From a virus, in the IMG/VR virus record IMGVR_UViG_3300048597_000651, positions 1 to 50,608 of that record: DNA of 50,608 nucleotides; one strand, 5' to 3'. How positions within the stretch are numbered: the stretch's first letter is position 1; each line of letters starts with the position of its first letter. Positions 9,893 to 50,608 of this stretch are shown piece by piece. The translations under genes were made by a program, and so were the position numbers. Under the pieces are notes generated by a model that was not told where the DNA came from, ran no database searches, and was given only the letters and a program-made list of their open reading frames with translations.

Positions 9893-10576
9893 TTAGCCTT
9901 CACCCTCCAGCACGGTGATCGTGAACACGTTCGCCATGTAGCGCGTGCCGCCCTGGTTGGCAGTGCTGGTTTTGACCAGCGCCTGCCGCACTTCGTCTTT
10001 GGTGACATAGGCCGAATGCACCAACCCGCCGAGCGTGCGATTGCGGAAGATCAGGTCATAGAACACGCCGGTGAACTCGCGCGTGCGGCGATCCGCCTCT
10101 GCGGTCTCCTGCGCCAGCACATGGCAGGCGATGGCGTTGATGTTGTATTCGCGCGTCGTCAGCACGCCGAACGTGTCGGACGTGTTCACGCCGCCCATGT
10201 ATTCGAAGAACATGAACGGCCCCGACTCACTGAACACTGGCGGGATCGCGTCATACACCCAGCGCAGGTAGGGTTCAATGCGCACCGCCGGCGGGCCGTC
10301 GTAGCCCATGCCGGTGTCGAGCATTGTCACGTCGGCGATGCTGCCGGCGGCCACGCGTGCCGCGCCTTCAGCAGGGTATTGGCCGCCATCGAAAGCCAGT
10401 CGCACATAGTCGGCATAGCCACTGCCGCCGGCGTCCACCGTCGCGGCGGTTATCGCGCCGGACTCAACGCTGGCTGATATCTGCGCGCCGAAACCATCTG
10501 CGGTAAGCGCCTGCCGAGCAATGTCGGCCAGCGTCAGAATAACTGGGCGAATGTCGTAGCGCATGGCAGTCGTCAT
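9893..10576 (-). CDS. Neck / tail-completion protein candidate, 227 aa
   Basis: The N-terminal half contains two related beta segments, AATVDAGGSGYADYVRLAF and VTMLDTGMGYDGPPAVRI, of the GGsGY type found as decoration inserts in phage virion proteins. The C-terminal half (YNINAIACHVLAQETAEADRRTREFTGVFYDLIF) is consistent with a tail terminator or head-tail joining protein. It lies between the connector gene and the tail genes. Its ATG at 10576 overlaps the upstream stop by four bases. Confidence 0.55.
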   Translation of the reverse strand: MTTAMRYDIRPVILTLADIARQALTADGFGAQISASVESGAITAATVDAGGSGYADYVRLAFDGGQYPAEGAARVAAGSIADVTMLDTGMGYDGPPAVRIEPYLRWVYDAIPPVFSESGPFMFFEYMGGVNTSDTFGVLTTREYNINAIACHVLAQETAEADRRTREFTGVFYDLIFRNRTLGGLVHSAYVTKDEVRQALVKTSTANQGGTRYMANVFTITVLEGEG

Positions 10577-33554: not shown

Positions 33555-33893
33555 TCATTCGCCCCCGCGCACTGCGTTGCGCCGCATCGCATCGCGCAAA
33601 ACCGTCGGCGCCCACGCCGGCACGAACGTCGAGTGCTTGGCCTTCGGCGTCACCACCGTCATCTCGATCAGCCGGCCCTGCTGGACGCCCCACTTGAGGG
33701 CCAGCGTGATCGTCGCCCCGCGCGTCAGCCCCGTCGCCGCCTGCAACTCGTTGTAGGTGGGCGGACGGCAATGCTCCACATACAGCCGCTCATAGGTCGC
33801 CAGCAGGTGCAGCCGGCGCGCCGTTGACTGCGTCTTCGTCGTAATCTTCCGTGCGCTTGTCGTCATCGTTGTTGCCATCGTCGTTGTCGCCAC
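33555..33893 (-). CDS. Winged-helix DNA-binding protein, about 112 aa
   Basis: The core YERLYVEHCRPPTYNELQAA and TGLTRGATITLALKWGVQQG match a winged helix like the LexA N-terminal domain. The N-terminal Thr/Met-rich stretch overlaps the upstream zinc-ribbon gene; the real start may be an internal ATG (33878 or 33866). It probably regulates the replication/membrane operon in which it lies. Confidence 0.6.
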   Translation of the reverse strand: MATTTMATTMTTSARKITTKTQSTARRLHLLATYERLYVEHCRPPTYNELQAATGLTRGATITLALKWGVQQGRLIEMTVVTPKAKHSTFVPAWAPTVLRDAMRRNAVRGGE

Positions 33894-34047
33894 CCAGCCG
33901 GATCGCCGCGACCGCCGCGCCCAACGTGCTCCACGAAACCGGTTGTGCTTGCCGCCCGTTGCGGGTGGGGGTGGAGCAGGACGGGCACCGCTTCAGCGTG
34001 CCGTTCAGGGCAATGATCCAAATTTGATCCATGCAGACATTGCACAT
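33790..34047 (-). CDS. Small zinc-ribbon protein, 85 aa
   Basis: GGAGG lies six bases before ATG 34047. The start has a Cys4 set (MCNVCMDQIWIIALNGTLKRCPSCSTP), fitting a zinc ribbon. The C-terminal half is acidic (GGDNDDGNNDDDKRTEDYDEDA) and probably disordered. The gene overlaps the wHTH gene in another frame. Confidence 0.55.
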   Translation of the reverse strand: MCNVCMDQIWIIALNGTLKRCPSCSTPTRNGRQAQPVSWSTLGAAVAAIRLGGDNDDGNNDDDKRTEDYDEDAVNGAPAAPAGDL

Positions 34048-34080: not shown

Positions 34081-35142
34081 CTACATCGACCGCTCCTGTG
34101 ATCGCTCCTGTTCTTCCCGCCGGCGCTTCTCCTCGCGCTCGACTGCCTCAGCCTCTTTGCGCGCCCGCTCGGATTCGGTATACACCGCCTGCGAGCGACG
34201 AAACGTTCTGCCATTTGCCATCTGCCGCTCGGCCTGTTTACGTTCGCGTTCTGCGCGCTGTTTGAGTGTGTCGTCGGCACTCTCTGCCGGTTGCGCCGGC
34301 GGCATCTCGAACAGCACCATCTGGCCGGTTTCGGCATATTCCTCAAGGATGCAGATGCCGACCGCCGTCACACTGCGCACCAGCCCGACCCGCTGCCGTG
34401 CCGCCGTTGATTCCTGCGCCCGTCGCAAATCGGCCAGAATTTCCTCTGTCCGCTCGACCGTAAAATGCTTCGCGGCCAGCGCGACAATCGCGTCACACAA
34501 CACCTGGCGCTTGCGTCCGGCGATGCCAAACTCGTAAATCACCGCCAGCACGCGCTTGCGGAAATCCGCCAGAAGCTCGAAGCGCGCCGTCCCCTCAAGA
34601 GGATTCACAAAGTTCACAAAGTTCATGCCAGCAGCAGCTTGCATGCTGCTTGCTTGATTAACTTCTGTAGTACGTACATGTACTGATTCAGAGCAGATTT
34701 CGCGTGAACTTTGTGAACTTTGTGAACTTTGTGAACTTTGAGCCACGCCTAAACATGAACTTTGTGAACTTTGTGAACTTTGTGGATTTACAAAGTTCAC
34801 AAAGTTCATGCTGTTTTGCACATCGTTTTGCGCAATGTTTCCCACGTCCGGGGCAACCGGAAGTTCACCCGTCGGGGCAACCGACATGAGCTGCGCGCCG
34901 CCTGCGCGCAACAGGTGAACCGTCGTGGCACTTTGCTTGTTTTGCTTGCGGCTGATCCAGCCGCCGGCTTCCAGTTCCTGCATCCAACGCACGACCAGCG
35001 GGTAGGCGCAACTCAGCGCCTTCGCCAGATCGGCATTTCGTGTGGTGAGCGCATCGCCACCGGCGTGCTGCCGCAGCCGGTCGTAGAAACGCTGCGCCTT
35101 CTCGCTCGGTTTCTCGCACGGTTTTGCGTTGTCGTGTGTCAA
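34081..35142 (-). CDS. Replication initiator-like protein carrying internal iterons, 353 aa
   Basis: Residues 1-80 hold a winged-helix region (FYDRLRQHAGGDALTTRNAD, LAKALSCAYPLVVRWMQELEAGGWISR). The middle (about 110-180) is an unusual linker of NFVNFVN and SQSSQSSQSS runs encoded by the iterons described separately. A second folded region follows (FELLADFRKRVLAVIYEFGI, VLCDAIVALAAKHFTVERTE), and the end is a very basic coiled coil (RERKQAERQMANGRTFRRSQ). This layout, with origin repeats inside the gene, resembles phage/plasmid initiators such as lambda O. Start is TTG 35142, with no ATG alternative near. Function is inferred. Confidence 0.6.
   Translation of the reverse strand: MTHDNAKPCEKPSEKAQRFYDRLRQHAGGDALTTRNADLAKALSCAYPLVVRWMQELEAGGWISRKQNKQSATTVHLLRAGGAQLMSVAPTGELPVAPDVGNIAQNDVQNSMNFVNFVNPQSSQSSQSSCLGVAQSSQSSQSSQSSREICSESVHVRTTEVNQASSMQAAAGMNFVNFVNPLEGTARFELLADFRKRVLAVIYEFGIAGRKRQVLCDAIVALAAKHFTVERTEEILADLRRAQESTAARQRVGLVRSVTAVGICILEEYAETGQMVLFEMPPAQPAESADDTLKQRAERERKQAERQMANGRTFRRSQAVYTESERARKEAEAVEREEKRRREEQERSQERSM
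34604..34809. repeat. Iterons: 11 copies of GTGAACTTT in two orientations (putative origin)
   Basis: Two inverted copies (TTCACAAAG) at 34604-34621, four direct copies GTGAACTTT at 34704-34739, three direct copies at 34755-34781 (the first ATGAACTTT), and two inverted copies at 34792-34809. A degenerate unit, GTGGATTTA, at 34782-34790 partly resembles a DnaA box. Between the first two groups lie the inverted repeats AGCAGC/GCTGCT and AGTAC/GTACT. The repeats code for NFV in one orientation and SQS in the other, so DNA, not protein, appears to be what is conserved. Confidence 0.85.
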
Positions 35143-35184
35143 GTCGGATCGTTGTCCGACGCCGGCACACAGGCGGACATCCTA

Positions 35185-35213
35185 TTGACACGCCCCGCAA
35201 CATGCTGTAATGT
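35185..35213 (+). promoter_or_regulatory. Promoter TTGACA-N17-TAATGT for a small RNA
   Basis: TTGACA (35185-35190), 17 bases, TAATGT (35208-35213) form a strong plus-strand promoter in a gap where both flanking genes are on the minus strand. The inverted repeat CAACAT/ATGTTG (35198-35215) overlaps the -10 box and could be an operator. The only downstream product on this strand is the short RNA ending at 35302. Confidence 0.7.
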
Positions 35214-35219
35214 TGTTGC

Positions 35220-35302
35220 GGCTGGTGTGGCATCTGTCCGCTGTGCCAGTCGTCCTACCGAACCCCAACAACCCGCCAGGTGAGAGGGGTTCGAATTTTT
35301 TT
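35220..35302 (+). ncRNA. Putative antisense RNA (~83 nt) opposite the initiator gene leader
   Basis: A transcript from about 35220 would form a first stem-loop, CTGGTGTGGC (35222-35231) with GCTGTGCCAG (35240-35249) around ATCTGTCC, and then a terminator stem CGAACCCC (35259-35266) with GGGGTTCG (35286-35293), followed by AA and seven Ts (35296-35302). Promoter, two stem-loops and terminator form a compact unit. It lies between the minus-strand gene at 35320-35688 and the initiator-like gene, so it is antisense to the initiator leader if these are co-transcribed. Such RNAs control replication initiators in many plasmids. Confidence 0.7.
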
Positions 35303-35319
35303 CCTCTAGATCGTCCTTT

Positions 35320-35688
35320 CTACGCCGGCATCAGTTCATCGATGGGCACGTAGTGCGGCTCACTTCTTCGTGCGGTGCTGCCGGCGGCCGCTTTTGGGGC
35401 CTTGCCCCGTTCGCTGCCCCGTTCGCTGCCCCGGTCGGGCAGGGGCGGCGGCTCGTTCAGGCTCAACAGCCGCGCAATCGCCAGTTGGATCAGCCGGCTG
35501 CGATCCATGCGCTGATCTGCATCCGCGATGTCCGCGTTCAGTTGCGCCAGATATTCATTCACCGCGTTATCCATCCACGCCGGCCACGAAATGCCGCGCT
35601 GCACCCGCCCAGGCGACGCCGGCGCAATCAACTGCTTCAACTCCCTCAGCACGGCCTCATTCACTGCCGCCTTGTTTGCCTCTCTCAT
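35320..35688 (-). CDS. Ribbon-helix-helix-like small regulator, 122 aa
   Basis: GGAGG precedes the ATG by 4-5 bases. The middle (ISWPAWMDNAVNEYLAQLNA, then RMDRSRLIQLAIARLLSLNE) fits a helical DNA-binding or CopG-like domain, in which SRLIQLAIARLL is the second helix. A tail rich in Glu, Arg and Ser follows (DRGSERGSERGKAPKAAA). As the first gene before the initiator, it could be the transcriptional repressor of the replication unit. Assignment to the family is tentative. Confidence 0.55.
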   Translation of the reverse strand: MREANKAAVNEAVLRELKQLIAPASPGRVQRGISWPAWMDNAVNEYLAQLNADIADADQRMDRSRLIQLAIARLLSLNEPPPLPDRGSERGSERGKAPKAAAGSTARRSEPHYVPIDELMPA

Positions 35689-35711
35689 GTAGCCTCCTAT
35701 TGACTGGAGTC

Positions 35712-35741
35712 ATATTAGCCTGACATATGACACTTTGTCAA
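35712..35741 (-). promoter_or_regulatory. Promoter for the leftward replication/membrane operon
   Basis: On the minus strand TTGACA (35741-35736), 18 bases, TAATAT (35717-35712). The spacer contains CATATG within TGTCATATGTCA, and the start region contains the inverted repeat TGACT-GG-AGTCA (35701-35712), both operator-like. The distance to the ATG of the 35320-35688 gene is about 24 bases. Confidence 0.75.
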
Positions 35742-35753
35742 GTGAAAAAAGAA

Positions 35754-35778
35754 AAACCCCGCCGGTTGGGCAGGGTTT
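35754..35778 (-). terminator. Terminator after the 35803-36492 gene
   Basis: AAACCC-C-GCC pairs with GGC-A-GGGTTT (one internal mismatch), and leftwards on the minus strand TTCTTTTTTC follows. It ends transcription of the secreted/membrane gene at 35803-36492 just before the promoter of the next unit. Confidence 0.7.
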
Positions 35779-35802
35779 CTAAAGCAAACGAGACGTGCTT
35801 TT

Positions 35803-36939: not shown

Positions 36940-37836
36940 TTAACTCACCTCGTGTTCGACATTATTATCCTTCAAGAATCCAATCAGTGTTGCGGCGTGC
37001 ACGCCCCATCCGACATGCATGAAACTGTGCGCCGTATCCCTCATTGTTCCTCCATCTTTGATCTGATAATTGAATCCCAACGGATAGTGTCTCGTCTGTG
37101 TTTGAATGCCCCAAATCCTGCCTTCTGCATCGAATATCGGGCCGCCACTTTGGCCTTTCAAACCCGGGCTAGATGTCTCGATATACGCTAGATCAAAGTC
37201 GAATTTCGGCGGCGGTATTCCCGCAGCCTCTTCGCGCAGCTTGATATTAATTATCCGCGTAAGTATGCCCTCGTTTGGGAACATTGGGAGTGGCGCCGAC
37301 AAGTTGAATGTCTCTTTTCCCTCATCGAATGTGGGTTGCACCTCACTAAATGGAAATCCAAGCCGGCACAGGCTGGTGCCATTGTCGAAATCAACAGTGG
37401 GATTCTTGATTTTGGGATATCCATGAATCATTGATGCATCAAATGGCGTCAATTGTCCCACCGCCAAGTCCATCAACGGGAAACTCCGAATGTCTACCAG
37501 TTGGCAATTGGGCAACCCGTAAAACAAAGAAAGCTTCCTCGGCGCATCTGCACCCGGGTCGGCTAACGCCATTTTGCGTCGGCGCTTGTCTTTGTCTTTT
37601 ATGCCAGCGTCAGCATCGATCTCGCTGCACTGTTGTTCATACGCATGCAGATCGCGTGAAGATCGCATCAGTTCATCGGCAGTTTTAAGAATGTGGGCGG
37701 CAGTGACAAACCATCCATCCCTGTTTATGACGACGCCAGTTCCAATGATTGAGTTGACATTTCTGTTTCGCGTCCAAATGGAAATGACGATTGGCAAAGT
37801 GAATAGGCGTGCAATTTTGTAGGCTTTGGCAAACAC
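36940..37836 (-). CDS. Trypsin-like serine protease, 298 aa
   Basis: The chymotrypsin-fold triad is visible: His48 in GWFVTAAHILK, Asp123 in FPLMDLAVGQL, and Ser230 in GLKGQSGGPIF. A preceding motif IGTGVVINRDG is typical. No clear signal peptide is seen (the first 20 residues are only weakly hydrophobic), so it probably acts inside the cell. The gene is AT-richer than its surroundings and has almost no GCCGGC sites, suggesting recent acquisition. Trypsin-like proteases occur as effectors in several bacterial anti-phage systems, so a defence role carried by the prophage is possible. An ordinary housekeeping HtrA-like protease is less likely because no PDZ domain is present. Confidence 0.8.
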   Translation of the reverse strand: MFAKAYKIARLFTLPIVISIWTRNRNVNSIIGTGVVINRDGWFVTAAHILKTADELMRSSRDLHAYEQQCSEIDADAGIKDKDKRRRKMALADPGADAPRKLSLFYGLPNCQLVDIRSFPLMDLAVGQLTPFDASMIHGYPKIKNPTVDFDNGTSLCRLGFPFSEVQPTFDEGKETFNLSAPLPMFPNEGILTRIINIKLREEAAGIPPPKFDFDLAYIETSSPGLKGQSGGPIFDAEGRIWGIQTQTRHYPLGFNYQIKDGGTMRDTAHSFMHVGWGVHAATLIGFLKDNNVEHEVS

Positions 37837-38251: not shown

Positions 38252-38551
38252 TTAATCTACGAATACCCACAGCCGGCCATCGTCGCCGATCTGCCACGTG
38301 CCGCGCTGAAGCCGGCGCTCGATGCGAATCACGTCCACCAGCAGCGGCACAGCATCAAGCCGGCTTGCTTCGCTTGCCAGTTCCCTTATCAGCAGCGCGT
38401 GGCTTGCTTTGTCGAGTCGTGTGCGCGATCTGTCGAAGAATCGCCGTAACGATTCCGACAGCCTTTCTCTTTTCATTTTCGTCTTCGATATCGTTGAGGA
38501 GTTCGGCAAACAGTTTCGTTTCATCGTCGTTGCTTCGATCCTCTCCCTCAT
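38252..38551 (-). CDS. Possible short gene overlapping the repressor end
   Basis: The frame is open for 99 residues; only its C-terminal part (LIRELASEASRLDAVPLLVD, VIRIERRLQRGTWQIGDDGR) looks protein-like. The upper 200 bases overlap the repressor in another frame, so the true gene, if any, probably begins with a GTG near 38346 just after the repressor stop, giving about 32 residues. Low support. Confidence 0.3.
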   Translation of the reverse strand: MRERIEATTMKRNCLPNSSTISKTKMKRERLSESLRRFFDRSRTRLDKASHALLIRELASEASRLDAVPLLVDVIRIERRLQRGTWQIGDDGRLWVFVD

Positions 38552-38771
38552 CCATCAAACCAAATTCACGAAAGACTATCTCTGGAGACACGCTGAGCCC
38601 GCGTGCAATCCCTTTGGCAATTTTGGGGCCGACATTTCTACGACCGGCATATACGTGAGTCAGTGCAGAGCTGTTGAAATCGCCGCGCCGTGCCAACTCG
38701 GAGCGGTCAATCCCTGCCAGCCTTAGCTGCTCATCCAACCATTGAATGCCTTCTTCGGTCGTTTTTGTCAT
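38355..38771 (-). CDS. XRE-family repressor (CI-like), 138 aa
   Basis: An HTH of the XRE/Cro-CI type covers residues 15-65: LDEQLRLAGIDRSELARRGD, FNSSALTHVYAGRRNVGPKI, AKGIARGLSVSPE. The C-terminal half is charged and helical (DETKLFAELLNDIEDENEKR), without a LexA-type peptidase motif. It is transcribed away from the early genes, with the operator/promoter region between. It is the best candidate for the lysogeny repressor. Confidence 0.82.
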   Translation of the reverse strand: MTKTTEEGIQWLDEQLRLAGIDRSELARRGDFNSSALTHVYAGRRNVGPKIAKGIARGLSVSPEIVFREFGLMDEGEDRSNDDETKLFAELLNDIEDENEKRKAVGIVTAILRQIAHTTRQSKPRAADKGTGKRSKPA

Positions 38772-41596: not shown

Positions 41597-41703
41597 CAGG
41601 CGGCGGGATTCTCCTTTCCCGCTTTGGGTTGGTTTCGCTGGCGGCCGGATCATGGGGCGGCTGCCAGCGAGCCGGAATGCACAGGAACATGGGAGCACAT
41701 GAA
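41597..41703 (+). promoter_or_regulatory. Structured leader before the 41704 gene
   Basis: Two hairpins can be drawn: GCGGGA/TCCCGC around TTCTCCTT, followed by TTT, and CGCTGGC/GCCAGCG spanning about 41636-41669. The leader ends with ATGGGAGCACATGAA, whose GGGAG is the ribosome site for ATG 41704. The sequence ATGGGAGCACA recurs in the 43454-43634 gap, so the two leaders may be related. Confidence 0.4.
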
Positions 41704-42855
41704 ATGGATCAACTTCAATTTGGCGCGTTCATCGAGCAACTGACGCGCATCGCCAATGCGCTGGAAGCCGCAAAGCCGGCAGAGCCGGATGCGATCACGC
41801 TGCCCATCGGCGCATACAAAACGTTCGACTGGACGCAGATCAACTGCCGCGTGTTCGCCGACGATGATTTCGGCGTGTCGCAGGTGTTCTGCATGAATGA
41901 CGGGCGCGTCTATACGCGCCGCACCAACGACAAATTCGGCTCTGAAATCTGGTTCTCGCGCGGTGACGGCAAAGCCGCCGACGGCACCGCGCGCTACAAG
42001 CGGTTGATCGAATTCCGCGAGATCAAGGACGCTGAACCCATCGGGCGCAAGGCCGAGCAGGCGCTGAAACACGCGCCGAACGTGCAAGCACCTGAATTAA
42101 AAGCGCCTGCGCTCAACGCGCCGCGCATCGAGTTGCCGGCAGACCTGCGCAAAGACTGGCTCTACTGGCATGACGAAGCTTCGAAGTTCGGCGCCGTGCC
42201 GGCAGAACTCGGCATCTACGAAGCCGACACCATCAGCAGCGTGAAGGACAAGATCGCGCGCCTCACGGCGCTGGTCGAAGCCGGCGCGGTCGCAGATGCG
42301 CAGATACTGCTCGACAAGCTGGTCATGGCACTAGCCGACGCGAAAGAGGCCGGCGTCGATGTGCCGGCAGAGTTCTATGCGACCGCCGGCGTTCCCGCTG
42401 ATGTGATCGAGATGCGCATCGGCACGGTGAAGAACCTTATCGCCGCCCAACAGGGCGCGCAGGTGATGACGCAATCAGCGACACAATCGGCACCCGCGCA
42501 ACAGCCTATTGCAAACGTTGCTGCCCAGCAGGTCATCAACGACCTGCGCGACGCCGCCGGCAAGAGCGCCCAGCGCGTCACCACGCAGTCGCAGGACTTC
42601 GACATCATCAGCGCGCTGGAGCATGTCTGTGGCACGGAGAAGGCGCGCCAGAGGTTCACCGAGATCGTGTTTGGCGAAGCGCGCTTCGACAAGCTCAAGC
42701 CGGCGCAGCGTTGCGCGCTGCTCACCTGGCTCAGGCCGGCGCGTGTCGCGAGTGGCAAAGCTCAGCCAACCAACCCGAAGGCCGCCGCCGGCGTTGCCGC
42801 CGTGCTGACCATGCCGCAGGCAGCAGAATCCCCTGAACAGGCGGTGACGGCGTGA
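41704..42855 (+). CDS. Uncharacterised early protein, candidate DNA-metabolism gene, 383 aa
   Basis: I place the start at ATG 41704, eight bases after GGGAG. N-terminal residues 30-120 contain a beta-rich domain (RVFADDDFGVSQVFCMNDGR, FGSEIWFSRGDGKA). The middle is helical, and near the end VINDLRDAAGKSAQRVTTQS and ALEHVCGTEKARQRFTEIVF suggest another folded unit. I do not recognise it. Its place before the ASCH and RuvB-like genes makes a role in DNA replication or recombination possible. Confidence 0.6.
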   Translation: MDQLQFGAFIEQLTRIANALEAAKPAEPDAITLPIGAYKTFDWTQINCRVFADDDFGVSQVFCMNDGRVYTRRTNDKFGSEIWFSRGDGKAADGTARYKRLIEFREIKDAEPIGRKAEQALKHAPNVQAPELKAPALNAPRIELPADLRKDWLYWHDEASKFGAVPAELGIYEADTISSVKDKIARLTALVEAGAVADAQILLDKLVMALADAKEAGVDVPAEFYATAGVPADVIEMRIGTVKNLIAAQQGAQVMTQSATQSAPAQQPIANVAAQQVINDLRDAAGKSAQRVTTQSQDFDIISALEHVCGTEKARQRFTEIVFGEARFDKLKPAQRCALLTWLRPARVASGKAQPTNPKAAAGVAAVLTMPQAAESPEQAVTA

Positions 42856-45965: not shown

Positions 45966-46919
45966 ATGAGTAAAGAACTGGTTGTTTCCACCCAGAAGAC
46001 TGACTATCAGGCCGCCAATGCTTACCTGATGTCGCTCAGCATCACCGGCCGCGGCAGCATGGAGTCGTCGCTGCGATTGGTGGCGCGTGTGATGGGCGCT
46101 GAAGATTACACGCGGGTCAATTGGGCATCGCTCAACGCCGCCAACGTGCAAGCGCTGGTGTCGAAAATTCGAGAGACACCCACCGAGCGCGGCACGGCGC
46201 GCTCACCCAACAGCGTGCATACCGTCCTCAATGCGCTCAAGGGCGTCGCGAAGGCCGCTTGGCGTCGCAACACGATCAACACCGACACATGGGAGCGCAT
46301 CCGTGATCTGAAAGCGCCACGCGGTTCGCGTCTGCCGGCTGGCCGTGACATTGCGCCCATCGAGCGCGCCGTGCTCATTTCCTCAGCCGTCGAAGATGAT
46401 CGCGCCGCCGGCGTCCGCGATGCCGCGATCATAGCTATGCTGATGGCGACGGGCATGCGCCGCGCCGAGTTGGTCGCACTCGCACTAGAAGACATCGAGA
46501 TGGCGACCGGCAAGATCACCATCATCGGCAAGGGCAACAAGGAACGCACCACCTATCTGGGTGATGAGACGATGCAGGCGCTGCGCGACTGGCTCCATGT
46601 GCGCGGCATGGACGCCGGCCCGTTGTTCTGCGCGATCACGAAAGGCGGCGCATTGCAGCGCGACCGCCACATGAGTCCTACCGCGCTGCACTACATCATT
46701 CAGCGCCGCGTGGACAGCGCCGGCCTGAGCAAGATGACCGCGCATGATTTCCGGCGCACACTCGCCGGCGATCTGCTCGACGAGAACATCGACATCTCCA
46801 CCGTCGGCGAGATGCTGGGTCATTCAGACCCGAAGACGACGAAGAAATATGACCGGCGCGGCGAGCGTGCAAAGCGACGGGCGGCCACGCACGTGCATGT
46901 GCCATACAAGCGAGGTTAA
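45966..46919 (+). CDS. Tyrosine recombinase (phage integrase family), 317 aa
   Basis: AAGGAAGTA precedes the ATG. The catalytic set is visible: Arg165 in ATGMRRAELVAL, Lys189 in IIGKGNKERT, His260 and Arg263 in TAHDFRRTLAG, His286 in MLGHSDPKTT, and Tyr295 in KKYDRR. The N-terminal core-binding domain covers residues 10-115. A second, serine-type recombinase lies at the right end, so this enzyme may instead resolve dimers or concatemers, or promote another inversion or excision reaction. Confidence 0.88.
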   Translation: MSKELVVSTQKTDYQAANAYLMSLSITGRGSMESSLRLVARVMGAEDYTRVNWASLNAANVQALVSKIRETPTERGTARSPNSVHTVLNALKGVAKAAWRRNTINTDTWERIRDLKAPRGSRLPAGRDIAPIERAVLISSAVEDDRAAGVRDAAIIAMLMATGMRRAELVALALEDIEMATGKITIIGKGNKERTTYLGDETMQALRDWLHVRGMDAGPLFCAITKGGALQRDRHMSPTALHYIIQRRVDSAGLSKMTAHDFRRTLAGDLLDENIDISTVGEMLGHSDPKTTKKYDRRGERAKRRAATHVHVPYKRG

Positions 46920-48736: not shown

Positions 48737-48929
48737 ACTGGTGGCGCGTTACCTTCCCACGGGGACGTTCCGCAACCCGCAAACAGCCGCAGGGGTGGTT
48801 GACAATCCGTCAAGCCTTCTACAATACGACCAGTATTTCGTCATGTTCGTCGAAGCCTTCGTGCCATGGGCATTAAACGAGTTGCAGAAGAGCAGCCCCC
48901 CACTATCAATAACGCCGGCTGGCCGTTAG
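48723..48929 (+). CDS. Small protein upstream of the serine recombinase, 68 aa
   Basis: MRVSELVARYLPTGTFRNPQ... with FVMFVEAFVPWALNELQKSS. It overlaps both the previous gene and the recombinase start, indicating coupled translation. It is too short to classify; a directionality factor is conceivable because of the position, but no helix-turn-helix is visible. Confidence 0.45.
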   Translation: MRVSELVARYLPTGTFRNPQTAAGVVDNPSSLLQYDQYFVMFVEAFVPWALNELQKSSPPLSITPAGR

Positions 48930-50608
48930 CCGGCGGCTACTACCGCAAGTCGCAGGTATTCGGCGAAGAGGATCGCGTCAGCACCGCACGTCAGCGCGAA
49001 GCGATCCTGCGCGAAGGCGAGCGCACCGGACACAACATCGAATGGTGGTGCGATGAGGAAGGCCATCGCTCAGGCCGGCACGATCACACGCGGCCAGGCT
49101 ACATGCAGTTCAAGCGCCGGCTTATTTCCGGCGCATATCGCACGGTCATCTTCTATCGTCTTGACCGCGCCAACCGCTCGATCAAAGAGACGATCTGGCT
49201 GGTCGAACACTGCCAGAAGGCCGGCGTGCGCCTCATCATCATCCGCGACGGCTTCGACTCTGCCCGTGACGGCTGGCAGGCGCGCGCGATTCGCCGGCTG
49301 TATCACGACGCGGTTGACAATCAGGGCGAAGCCGACGATGCCGCCGACCGGATGCGTGATGCGATCCGGCACGCGAAATCGAAGGGCATTCCGTGGGGCA
49401 CGACGCCGAAAGGGCTGCTGCGCGTCGGCATCGGCTCACAGGCGCGCTGGGTGAAGCGCGCAGCGCATGAGCCTCGCTCAAAACGCCAAACTGACAATAG
49501 CGCCGGCGACGTGCGCACGTGGCTGACGCTGTTTGCGACGCACTCATATCAGGCGACCGCCGACGAAGCCAACCGGCGCGGCATGCGCTGGTACGATCGC
49601 GACGGCCTGCCCACCCCGCTCACGCCTGAGCGCATCCGCCAGATCGCCGGCAACCTGCTGACCTACTGCGGCTACGTCATGCCGGCAGCCGGCCACTCTA
49701 AAGCGCGACTGGTGAAGCTGGACGGATCGGGCAGCCTGCTCGACCAATTCGCGCGCGCTTACGACGCCGTGCGCACGGATCACATCGAGCCGATTCTTGA
49801 TCCTGTGGCCGATGCACGCCTGATCGAGCGCATCATCACCAAGCGCCGCAATGCGCAGGGCGCGCTGGATGATCGTGGCCGGCGCGCAAAGAAACGCTGT
49901 GGCATCCTCACGCCGGCGCTGTTCTGGAAACGCGACGACGGCCGGCTGATAAAACTGCGGTCACACGACAACAACGGCACGCACTACTACATCACCCGCG
50001 TCAGGCCGCAGATGAGCTGGCACGCGGAAGCCGTTGAGGACATGCTGCTGGAGCAACTGCGCGGTGTGACGTTCCCGCCGGCGGCGCGCGATGCGCTGCG
50101 CCGGATCATCGCCGCGCAACACGACGACGCCAAACACGCAGAGGCGCAGACCAGTGTCACCCGCGCGCGCAACCGGCTGATTGCGATTGATGAAATGCGT
50201 GTCGAACTGAAGGCGAGACGGGCCGGCGGCGAGATCGACGCGAATCGCTACGCAGAGGACGACGCGCGCTACAGGCAAATGCAGCACGACGCCGAGTTGC
50301 AGCTCTTTCAGGCGCAGCGCGTGCTATCGAGCGCCGGCGACATAGACCAGGTGATTAAGCTGTTGAGCGATCTGGGTGAGGGCATCAGCCGGCTCACGCC
50401 GGAGATGAAGCGCCAGGCCCTGCAGGGGCTGTTCGCAAAGAAGATCATCAGCACCGCCGGCGAGATTGTGCGGCTGGAGCCTCAAGCGTGGATTGCGCAG
50501 CCCTTTGGCGAGCTGGTGTGGGCGTGGCGACATTCGCACCCCGCCCACAATGCTGGAGATATACCAAATGTGACCCCTACGGGACTCGAACCCGTGTTTA
50601 AGCCTTGA
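48866..50608 (+). CDS. Large serine recombinase (integrase), 580 aa
   Basis: The N-terminal resolvase domain has YYRKSQ (catalytic Ser29), VSTARQREAI and TVIFYRLDRANRS with the conserved Arg. A recombinase domain follows (KGIPWGTTPKGLLRVGI and PLTPERIRQIAGNLLTYCGY). Then come a region without the usual Cys zinc ribbon and a coiled coil (RNRLIAIDEMRVELKARRAG). The last residues, VTPTGLEPVFKP, are encoded by the 3' part of a tRNA gene on the other strand, so the stop lies within the attachment site. It should integrate the phage into that tRNA gene. The start (ATG 48866) overlaps the previous gene. Confidence 0.88.
   Translation: MGIKRVAEEQPPTINNAGWPLAGGYYRKSQVFGEEDRVSTARQREAILREGERTGHNIEWWCDEEGHRSGRHDHTRPGYMQFKRRLISGAYRTVIFYRLDRANRSIKETIWLVEHCQKAGVRLIIIRDGFDSARDGWQARAIRRLYHDAVDNQGEADDAADRMRDAIRHAKSKGIPWGTTPKGLLRVGIGSQARWVKRAAHEPRSKRQTDNSAGDVRTWLTLFATHSYQATADEANRRGMRWYDRDGLPTPLTPERIRQIAGNLLTYCGYVMPAAGHSKARLVKLDGSGSLLDQFARAYDAVRTDHIEPILDPVADARLIERIITKRRNAQGALDDRGRRAKKRCGILTPALFWKRDDGRLIKLRSHDNNGTHYYITRVRPQMSWHAEAVEDMLLEQLRGVTFPPAARDALRRIIAAQHDDAKHAEAQTSVTRARNRLIAIDEMRVELKARRAGGEIDANRYAEDDARYRQMQHDAELQLFQAQRVLSSAGDIDQVIKLLSDLGEGISRLTPEMKRQALQGLFAKKIISTAGEIVRLEPQAWIAQPFGELVWAWRHSHPAHNAGDIPNVTPTGLEPVFKP
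50571..50608 (-). tRNA. 3' part of a tRNA gene, presumed attachment-site core
   Basis: Read on the minus strand, ACGGG-TTCGAGT-CCCGT (50595-50579) is a T-arm with the standard TTCGA loop, followed by the acceptor strand AGGGGTC (50578-50572) and the discriminator A at 50571. CCA is not encoded. The 5' part, with the anticodon, lies beyond the right edge, so the isotype cannot be given. The overlap with the recombinase gene marks attR (or the attP core). Confidence 0.75.

Follow-up and report, generated by a model that had tools for sequence, protein, structure and literature searches.

A predicted plasmid-type replicon controlled by an antisense RNA in tailed phages of uncultured bacteria

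Copy control by an antisense RNA that acts on an initiator gene containing its own origin belongs to plasmid biology. In the plasmid pSK41, the ribosome site of rep is sequestered by a stem-loop whose formation RNAI induces, and the origin is located within rep, where it encodes a linker of the protein (PMC5703833). Plasmid pMV158 co-transcribes the gene for CopG with that of its initiator (PMC5717011). In phage lambda, oop runs leftward from pO and ends at a hairpin, with OOP overlapping cII by 52 bases (PMC5869508). Plasmid prophages of the Bacillus cereus group carry ParM, a ribbon-helix-helix (RHH) adaptor and an initiator (PMC8026635). Mycobacterial prophages that stay extrachromosomal rely either on a P1-like RepA or on an RNA-based origin (PMC7157519). 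Here we describe a locus that combines several of these arrangements in the IMG/VR virus record IMGVR_UViG_3300048597_000651, a linear record whose 50,608 bases are referred to below as the window. We propose that this locus works as an autonomous replicon of the theta type, under two-layer copy control, that most likely keeps the prophage as a low-copy plasmid, a reading to which we assign a probability of roughly 0.6. The model is based on gene order, conservation, repeat statistics, compensatory base changes and predicted domains.

Relatives were traced by terminase, capsid and then initiator alignments, which identified three further IMG/VR phages with the replicon unit among 2.9 million viral contigs: G003 (L139), G038 (L140) and G039 (L147). 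The best tblastn segments of their initiators are 37%, 50% and 29% identical to that of the window, respectively, the small proteins encoded upstream are 36-43% identical in a four-way alignment, and the gene order and orientation of the unit are the same in all four phages (Table 1). Conservation of the unit in these further phages raises the possibility that the virus persists in its host as a plasmid. No relatives of the initiator were found in phage or plasmid collections, the iteron 27-mer had no match among viral contigs, and Rfam yielded no match. When two iterons and GTACGTAC were combined as a search pattern, only the three known relatives were recovered from the 2.9 million viral contigs. 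On these sequence searches, the replicon group is narrow, with four phage members found here. A match between a Streptomyces plasmid and the L140 initiator was rejected, as it falls in a simple-repeat stretch. The iteron 21-mer also occurs at 46 places in genome contigs, mostly as dispersed copies in two Bacteroidales MAGs, and these were not counted as relatives. Within the two MAGs (L018, L022, L030, L039), the iteron-like 21-mer often forms inverted pairs ~223 bp apart, and we regard it as a separate dispersed element.

Table 1. Coordinates of the features discussed, in window positions.
Feature	Position	Strand	Basis and remarks
Repressor-like gene	38355-38771	-	Divides leftward arm (with replicon) from rightward early arm
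Intrinsic terminator of upstream gene, insulating the module	35752..35780	-	12-bp stem and T run; same place in 4/4 phages
Regulator-initiator operon promoter	35712..35741	-	TTGACA-18-TAATAT; consensus scan
Candidate operator, inverted repeat TGACA-n3-TGTCA	Overlaps -35 box of 35712..35741 promoter	-	TTGACANNNTGTC in 4/4 phages
Small conserved regulator gene, 122 aa	35320..35688	-	Homologs before initiator in 4/4 phages; RHH-like pattern, fold unproven
Predicted counter-transcribed RNA, about 83 nt	35220..35302	+	Stem-loop (loop CUGUCCG) and intrinsic terminator, between regulator and initiator genes
mRNA target of antisense loop, 5' half of long-range leader helix	35235..35248	-	UGGCACAGCGGACA pairs with UGUCCGC...UGUGCCG
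Antisense RNA promoter TTGACA-17-TAATGT	35185..35213 (TTGACA 35185-35190; -10 35208-35213)	+	Sequence; TTGACA in 4/4 phages
3' half of long-range leader helix	35163..35179	-	Pairs with 35235..35248
Start-site hairpin GTCGGA-caacga-TCCGAC	35143..35160	-	Directly before initiator start codon
Replication initiator gene, 353 aa	34081..35142	-	Alignment and AlphaFold model; relatives match PHROG replication initiation families
Iteron array, predicted origin	34609..34808	both orientations	11 copies of AAAGTTCA, mostly 9 bp apart
GTACGTAC palindrome in predicted origin	34670..34677	.	Once per record, 4/4 phages
Small CxxC protein gene after initiator	33790..34047	-	ORF lists; relative in G003, L139:6082-6369
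Second small winged-helix protein gene of module	33555..33893	-	Relative L140:7152-7493 matches Pfam LexA_DNA_bind, 1e-7; relatives in G038 and G039

In the AlphaFold model of the initiator, two regions are confident, a winged helix (aa 14-77) and a helical C-terminal domain (181-272). The linker between them (82-183) is disordered, and the DNA that encodes it is that of the iterons. A fold search of the PDB with the winged helix placed 4pql, 4pt7, 5kbj and 4pta among the best matches (Z 8.3-10.5), where many unrelated winged helix-turn-helix (wHTH) proteins tie with them; going by the entry titles, we take these four to be staphylococcal RepA_N plasmid initiators. The relatives match PHROG families, with phrog_270 (replication initiation) at 1.5e-7 for L140 and phrog_391 (replication initiation O-like) at 5.5e-5 for L140, 3e-4 for L147 and 0.07 for L139. 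Profile searches with the window initiator itself gave no direct match to any replication family, the O-like PHROG included, and hmmscan at E<=0.1, covering the window protein and those of two relatives, did not list Pfam RepA_N. The N-terminus of the window protein weakly matches MarR/Crp-type wHTH models, which, together with the missing direct match to a replication family, would be expected if the 353-aa protein were a DNA-binding regulator or partition adaptor and the repeats its binding array or a centromere-like site. We consider this improbable, since relatives of the protein match replication initiation families, the iteron array lies inside the gene alongside a separate helical C-terminal domain, and antisense control of a leader is typical of plasmid initiators.

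The iteron-bearing initiator of the original prediction is upheld by both the PHROG matches of the relatives and the repeat statistics. The initiator gene of the window contains 11 copies of AAAGTTCA, compared with a mean of 1.7 and a maximum of 5 in 2000 synonymous-codon permutations, and no copy was found elsewhere in the 50.6 kb. Across the four phages, the initiator genes contain 11, 11, 13 and 14 copies versus 0, 0, 2 and 1 in the remainder of each record, and the permutations average 0.8-1.9 copies with a maximum of 6. Neighboring iterons are 9 bp apart in the window and in G003 but 7 bp apart in G038 and in G039; AAAGTTCA is present on both strands in all four phages and in several reading frames in the relatives. 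Because spacing, frames and strands vary while the copies exceed the permutations, selection acts on the DNA rather than on the peptide. Just after the main array, each of the four phages has the GTACGTAC palindrome. The linker is both disordered and repetitive, as would result if low-complexity coding sequence had produced repeats that mirror a repetitive peptide (QSSQSS / NFVNFV) and hairpins that arise by chance. That explanation is very hard to sustain, given that all four phages keep the 8-mer despite differences in frame, strand and spacing, at levels above the synonymous permutations, and that the start-site hairpin described below shows compensatory changes.

A counter-transcribed RNA had been predicted without coordinates, and our analysis turns it into a strong prediction: a layout of own promoter, one stem-loop and terminator is predicted in all four phages, with diverged sequence. 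The terminator in the window consists of a stem at 35259-35293 and a seven-T run ending at 35302, and the fold z is -3.2 for the window and -5.0, -2.9 and -4.1 for the relatives. Three phages have CUGYCC as the core of the loop, and the remaining one has UGCCC. Owing to G-U pairs, the window stem folds far better on the antisense strand (-18.0 kcal/mol) than on the sense strand (-8.6 kcal/mol), which points to the plus-strand transcript as the functional RNA; G003 shows little of this asymmetry, and G038 and G039 show none. The -10 box of the antisense promoter is spanned by a perfect inverted repeat, CCGCAACA-n11-TGTTGCGG (35195-35221), and the relatives have similar repeats; it is a candidate for a third leader hairpin or an operator.

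The leader of the initiator mRNA contains two further predicted structures. A long-range helix includes the target of the antisense loop in its 5' half and comprises 14 pairs with a bulge in the window and nine uninterrupted pairs in G039. Shuffled sequences paired equally well in 3, 19, 80 and 0 cases per 500 for the window, G003, G038 and G039, respectively, such that the helix is not significant on its own in G038. An IncB-type pseudoknot was set aside for the long-range helix, which fits better because pairing extends into the stem. The 3' segment of this helix overlaps or directly precedes the start-site hairpin, which has a perfect 6-7-bp stem in all four phages and ends 0-4 nt ahead of the start codon of the initiator. 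In a manual count of the pairs, made because MAFFT left the leader hairpins unaligned, 24 of 24 cells are paired and each of the 6 common pairs shows a compensatory change. Such a hairpin arises by chance in about 1% of shuffles for each phage. A GAGG/AAGG Shine-Dalgarno-like sequence lies inside the hairpin in G038 and G039, and no clear Shine-Dalgarno sequence was found in the hairpin of the window. The simplest reading is that the leader may act as a switch, in which the long-range helix would allow the initiator to be made and a bound antisense RNA would promote the hairpin that hides the start. Such a switch matches the one described for pSK41 (PMC5703833). We consider it very probable that the segment is a replicon with antisense control. 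The original proposal of a complete plasmid-type replicon is well supported, by its anatomy and by the conservation of every element in four phages.

Upstream, the operon promoter is the only sigma-70-like site within 33.5-36.5 kb (0.6 expected) and is conserved in three relatives, and the regulated promoter originally predicted at this position proved exact. A symmetric site, TTGACA-n3-TGTC, lies over the -35 box in all four phages, where the operator of an auto-repressor such as CopG would be expected. For the small regulator, the gene itself is real and conserved, and the RHH fold originally ascribed to its product did not find support: the AlphaFold model has a pLDDT of 57, the PDB fold search contained no RHH match, Pfam RHH_1 matched one of the four members at E=1.1, and neither a PDB profile search nor a comparison with CopG gave profile support for RHH. 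The protein may be a CopG-like auto-repressor, with the ribbon-helix-helix label unproven, and we only infer the auto-repression step because that fold was backed by no search. G003 contains two extra TGACA-n3-TGTCA sites (L139 about 10499-10535) upstream of a 118-aa gene, which suggests that the regulator may control a second operon.

The left half of the window is a tailed-phage structural module; the phage structural genes that bear on a phage-plasmid assignment are present as terminase, portal and a major capsid protein, the latter recognized via related phages. No end repeats were found in the record, and no host flank was recognized in this virus contig, which had originally been described as a prophage. 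No circular record was found. In another relative, G001, a serine recombinase is followed after about 4.4 kb by the tail gene of the window's left end, and the two window ends are thereby joined, which indicates that the phage map is circular; virion DNA would show this junction as well. A few kb of the phage are absent from the window record, and the colinear relative G038 is 56.9 kb long. The rightward early arm encodes a DdrB-like protein, a RuvB/clamp-loader-like ATPase and, as originally noted, two different recombinases, one tyrosine and one large serine, which would also allow integration. Their genes lie at 45966-46919 and 48866-50608, and G001 and G038 contain both kinds too, with different proteins in G038. 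The DdrB-like protein (41629-42855) matches a Deinococcus-type family of single-strand-binding proteins (Pfam PF12747, 5e-7). Between repressor and replicon, each phage carries cargo unrelated to that of the others: a trypsin-like protease in the window (36940-37836), a 652-aa protein in G038 (L140:2201-4159) and a DNA-methyltransferase-like protein in G003 (L139:2733-4427).

We also compared partition genes among these phages. G038 and G003 encode an actin-like ParM, with Pfam ALP_N over cut-off in both and full-length matches to ParM/StbA plasmid proteins, and the G038 gene matches a PHROG partition protein (E=9e-25). In each, ParM is followed by a small gene in the manner of a ParM/ParR pair. 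Identity between the two pairs is 42% and 45%, and their map positions differ; the G003 pair follows immediately after the replicon and shares its strand. No convincing parC-like repeats were found before ParM in the relatives. Partition genes are present in two relatives and were not found in the window, where ParA, ParB and ParM had no match and the ParMR locus is empty in colinear comparison with G038. ParA/ParB HMMs matched neither the window nor the relatives, and most named control genomes match them. In the window, G003 and G038, the replicon and the repressor gene lie on one strand and the early arm on the other, which fits expression of the replicon in the lysogen. The phage-plasmid life style suggested originally therefore gains from ParM in two relatives and from a replicon on the repressor side rather than in the early operon, and loses from the lack of ParA, ParB and ParM matches in the window, from the failure to find a circular form and from two recombinases that would permit integration; on balance, we somewhat favor a plasmid-prophage life style for this virus.

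The main rival is a lytic module of the lambda type, in which an O-like initiator whose gene contains the origin, immediately preceded by an OOP-like antisense RNA, would replicate phage DNA upon infection or induction. The prophage would then be chromosomal, integrated by the serine or tyrosine recombinase. The two recombinases of the window, the matches of two relatives to 'replication initiation O-like' PHROG families and the similar lambda order of cII, oop and O with ori-lambda inside (PMC5869508, PMC6022878) are consistent with it. However, the operon is on the repressor strand in the window, G003 and G038, opposite the early arm and unlike lambda O. Furthermore, the predicted antisense RNA runs across the leader of the initiator and ends either short of the regulator gene or right at its end, unlike OOP, which shares 52 bases with cII (PMC5869508). 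The plasmid-type start-site control structures in the leader and the ParM genes of two relatives likewise argue against a lambda-type module, which we judge unlikely.

Under the plasmid-replicon model, the promoter at 35741 would transcribe the small regulator and the initiator, and the regulator would probably repress it at TGACA-n3-TGTCA over the -35 box. A constitutive antisense RNA (~35220-35302, +) would be made in proportion to copy number. When antisense RNA is lacking, the long-range leader helix would keep the start-site hairpin open and the initiator would be translated; the conserved alternative structures suggest that an antisense loop on its target would break this helix, such that the start-site hairpin folds and, where one is visible (G038, G039), would hide the Shine-Dalgarno sequence. 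The winged helix of the initiator would bind the AAAGTTCA iterons within its own gene, the C-terminal domain would presumably recruit host replication proteins, and in some relatives the ParM/ParR pair would segregate the copies. There is about an even chance that these phages constitute an undescribed plasmid-prophage group, defined by a distinct initiator family, 7- or 9-bp iterons in its own gene, a promoter repressor combined with an antisense RNA acting via a long-range helix, and exchangeable ParM/ParR. The presence of this circuit and its covarying RNA structures in tailed phages whose hosts are uncultured would tie plasmid copy control to the phage life style. Plasmid prophages without recognizable partition genes could then be tested for directly from sequence, and the replicon could become a vector for an uncultured host group.

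Among known systems, the unit resembles pSK41-type RepA_N replicons of staphylococcal multiresistance plasmids in the central position of the origin in the rep gene (PMC5703833) and in an initiator with a winged-helix N-terminus, a linker encoded by the origin and a helical C-terminus, here as predicted. Unlike that type, the window initiator has no Pfam RepA_N match, its iterons are short (7/9 bp) rather than four Rep boxes, and the unit has an extra co-transcribed regulator gene and a tailed-phage carrier. The order of promoter, small repressor gene, antisense RNA and initiator is that of pMV158 copG-RNAII-repB (PMC5703833, PMC5717011), but pMV158 is a rolling-circle plasmid with a nickase initiator, whereas the window has a predicted theta-type initiator with iterons and a small protein whose RHH fold is unproven. 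With lambda cII-oop-O-P (PMC5869508, PMC6022878), it shares a regulator, a short antisense RNA and an initiator with the origin in its gene, as well as O-like PHROG matches in relatives; OOP, however, targets the end of cII, whereas the antisense RNA of the window would target the initiator leader, and the module is on the repressor side of the genome. Like the plasmid prophages of the Bacillus cereus group and of mycobacteria, these are tailed temperate phages with an initiator, recombinases and, in two relatives, partition genes, but no similar initiator was found, and the Bacillus paper mentions no antisense control (PMC8026635). The unit in the window is a variant of known plasmid control circuits.
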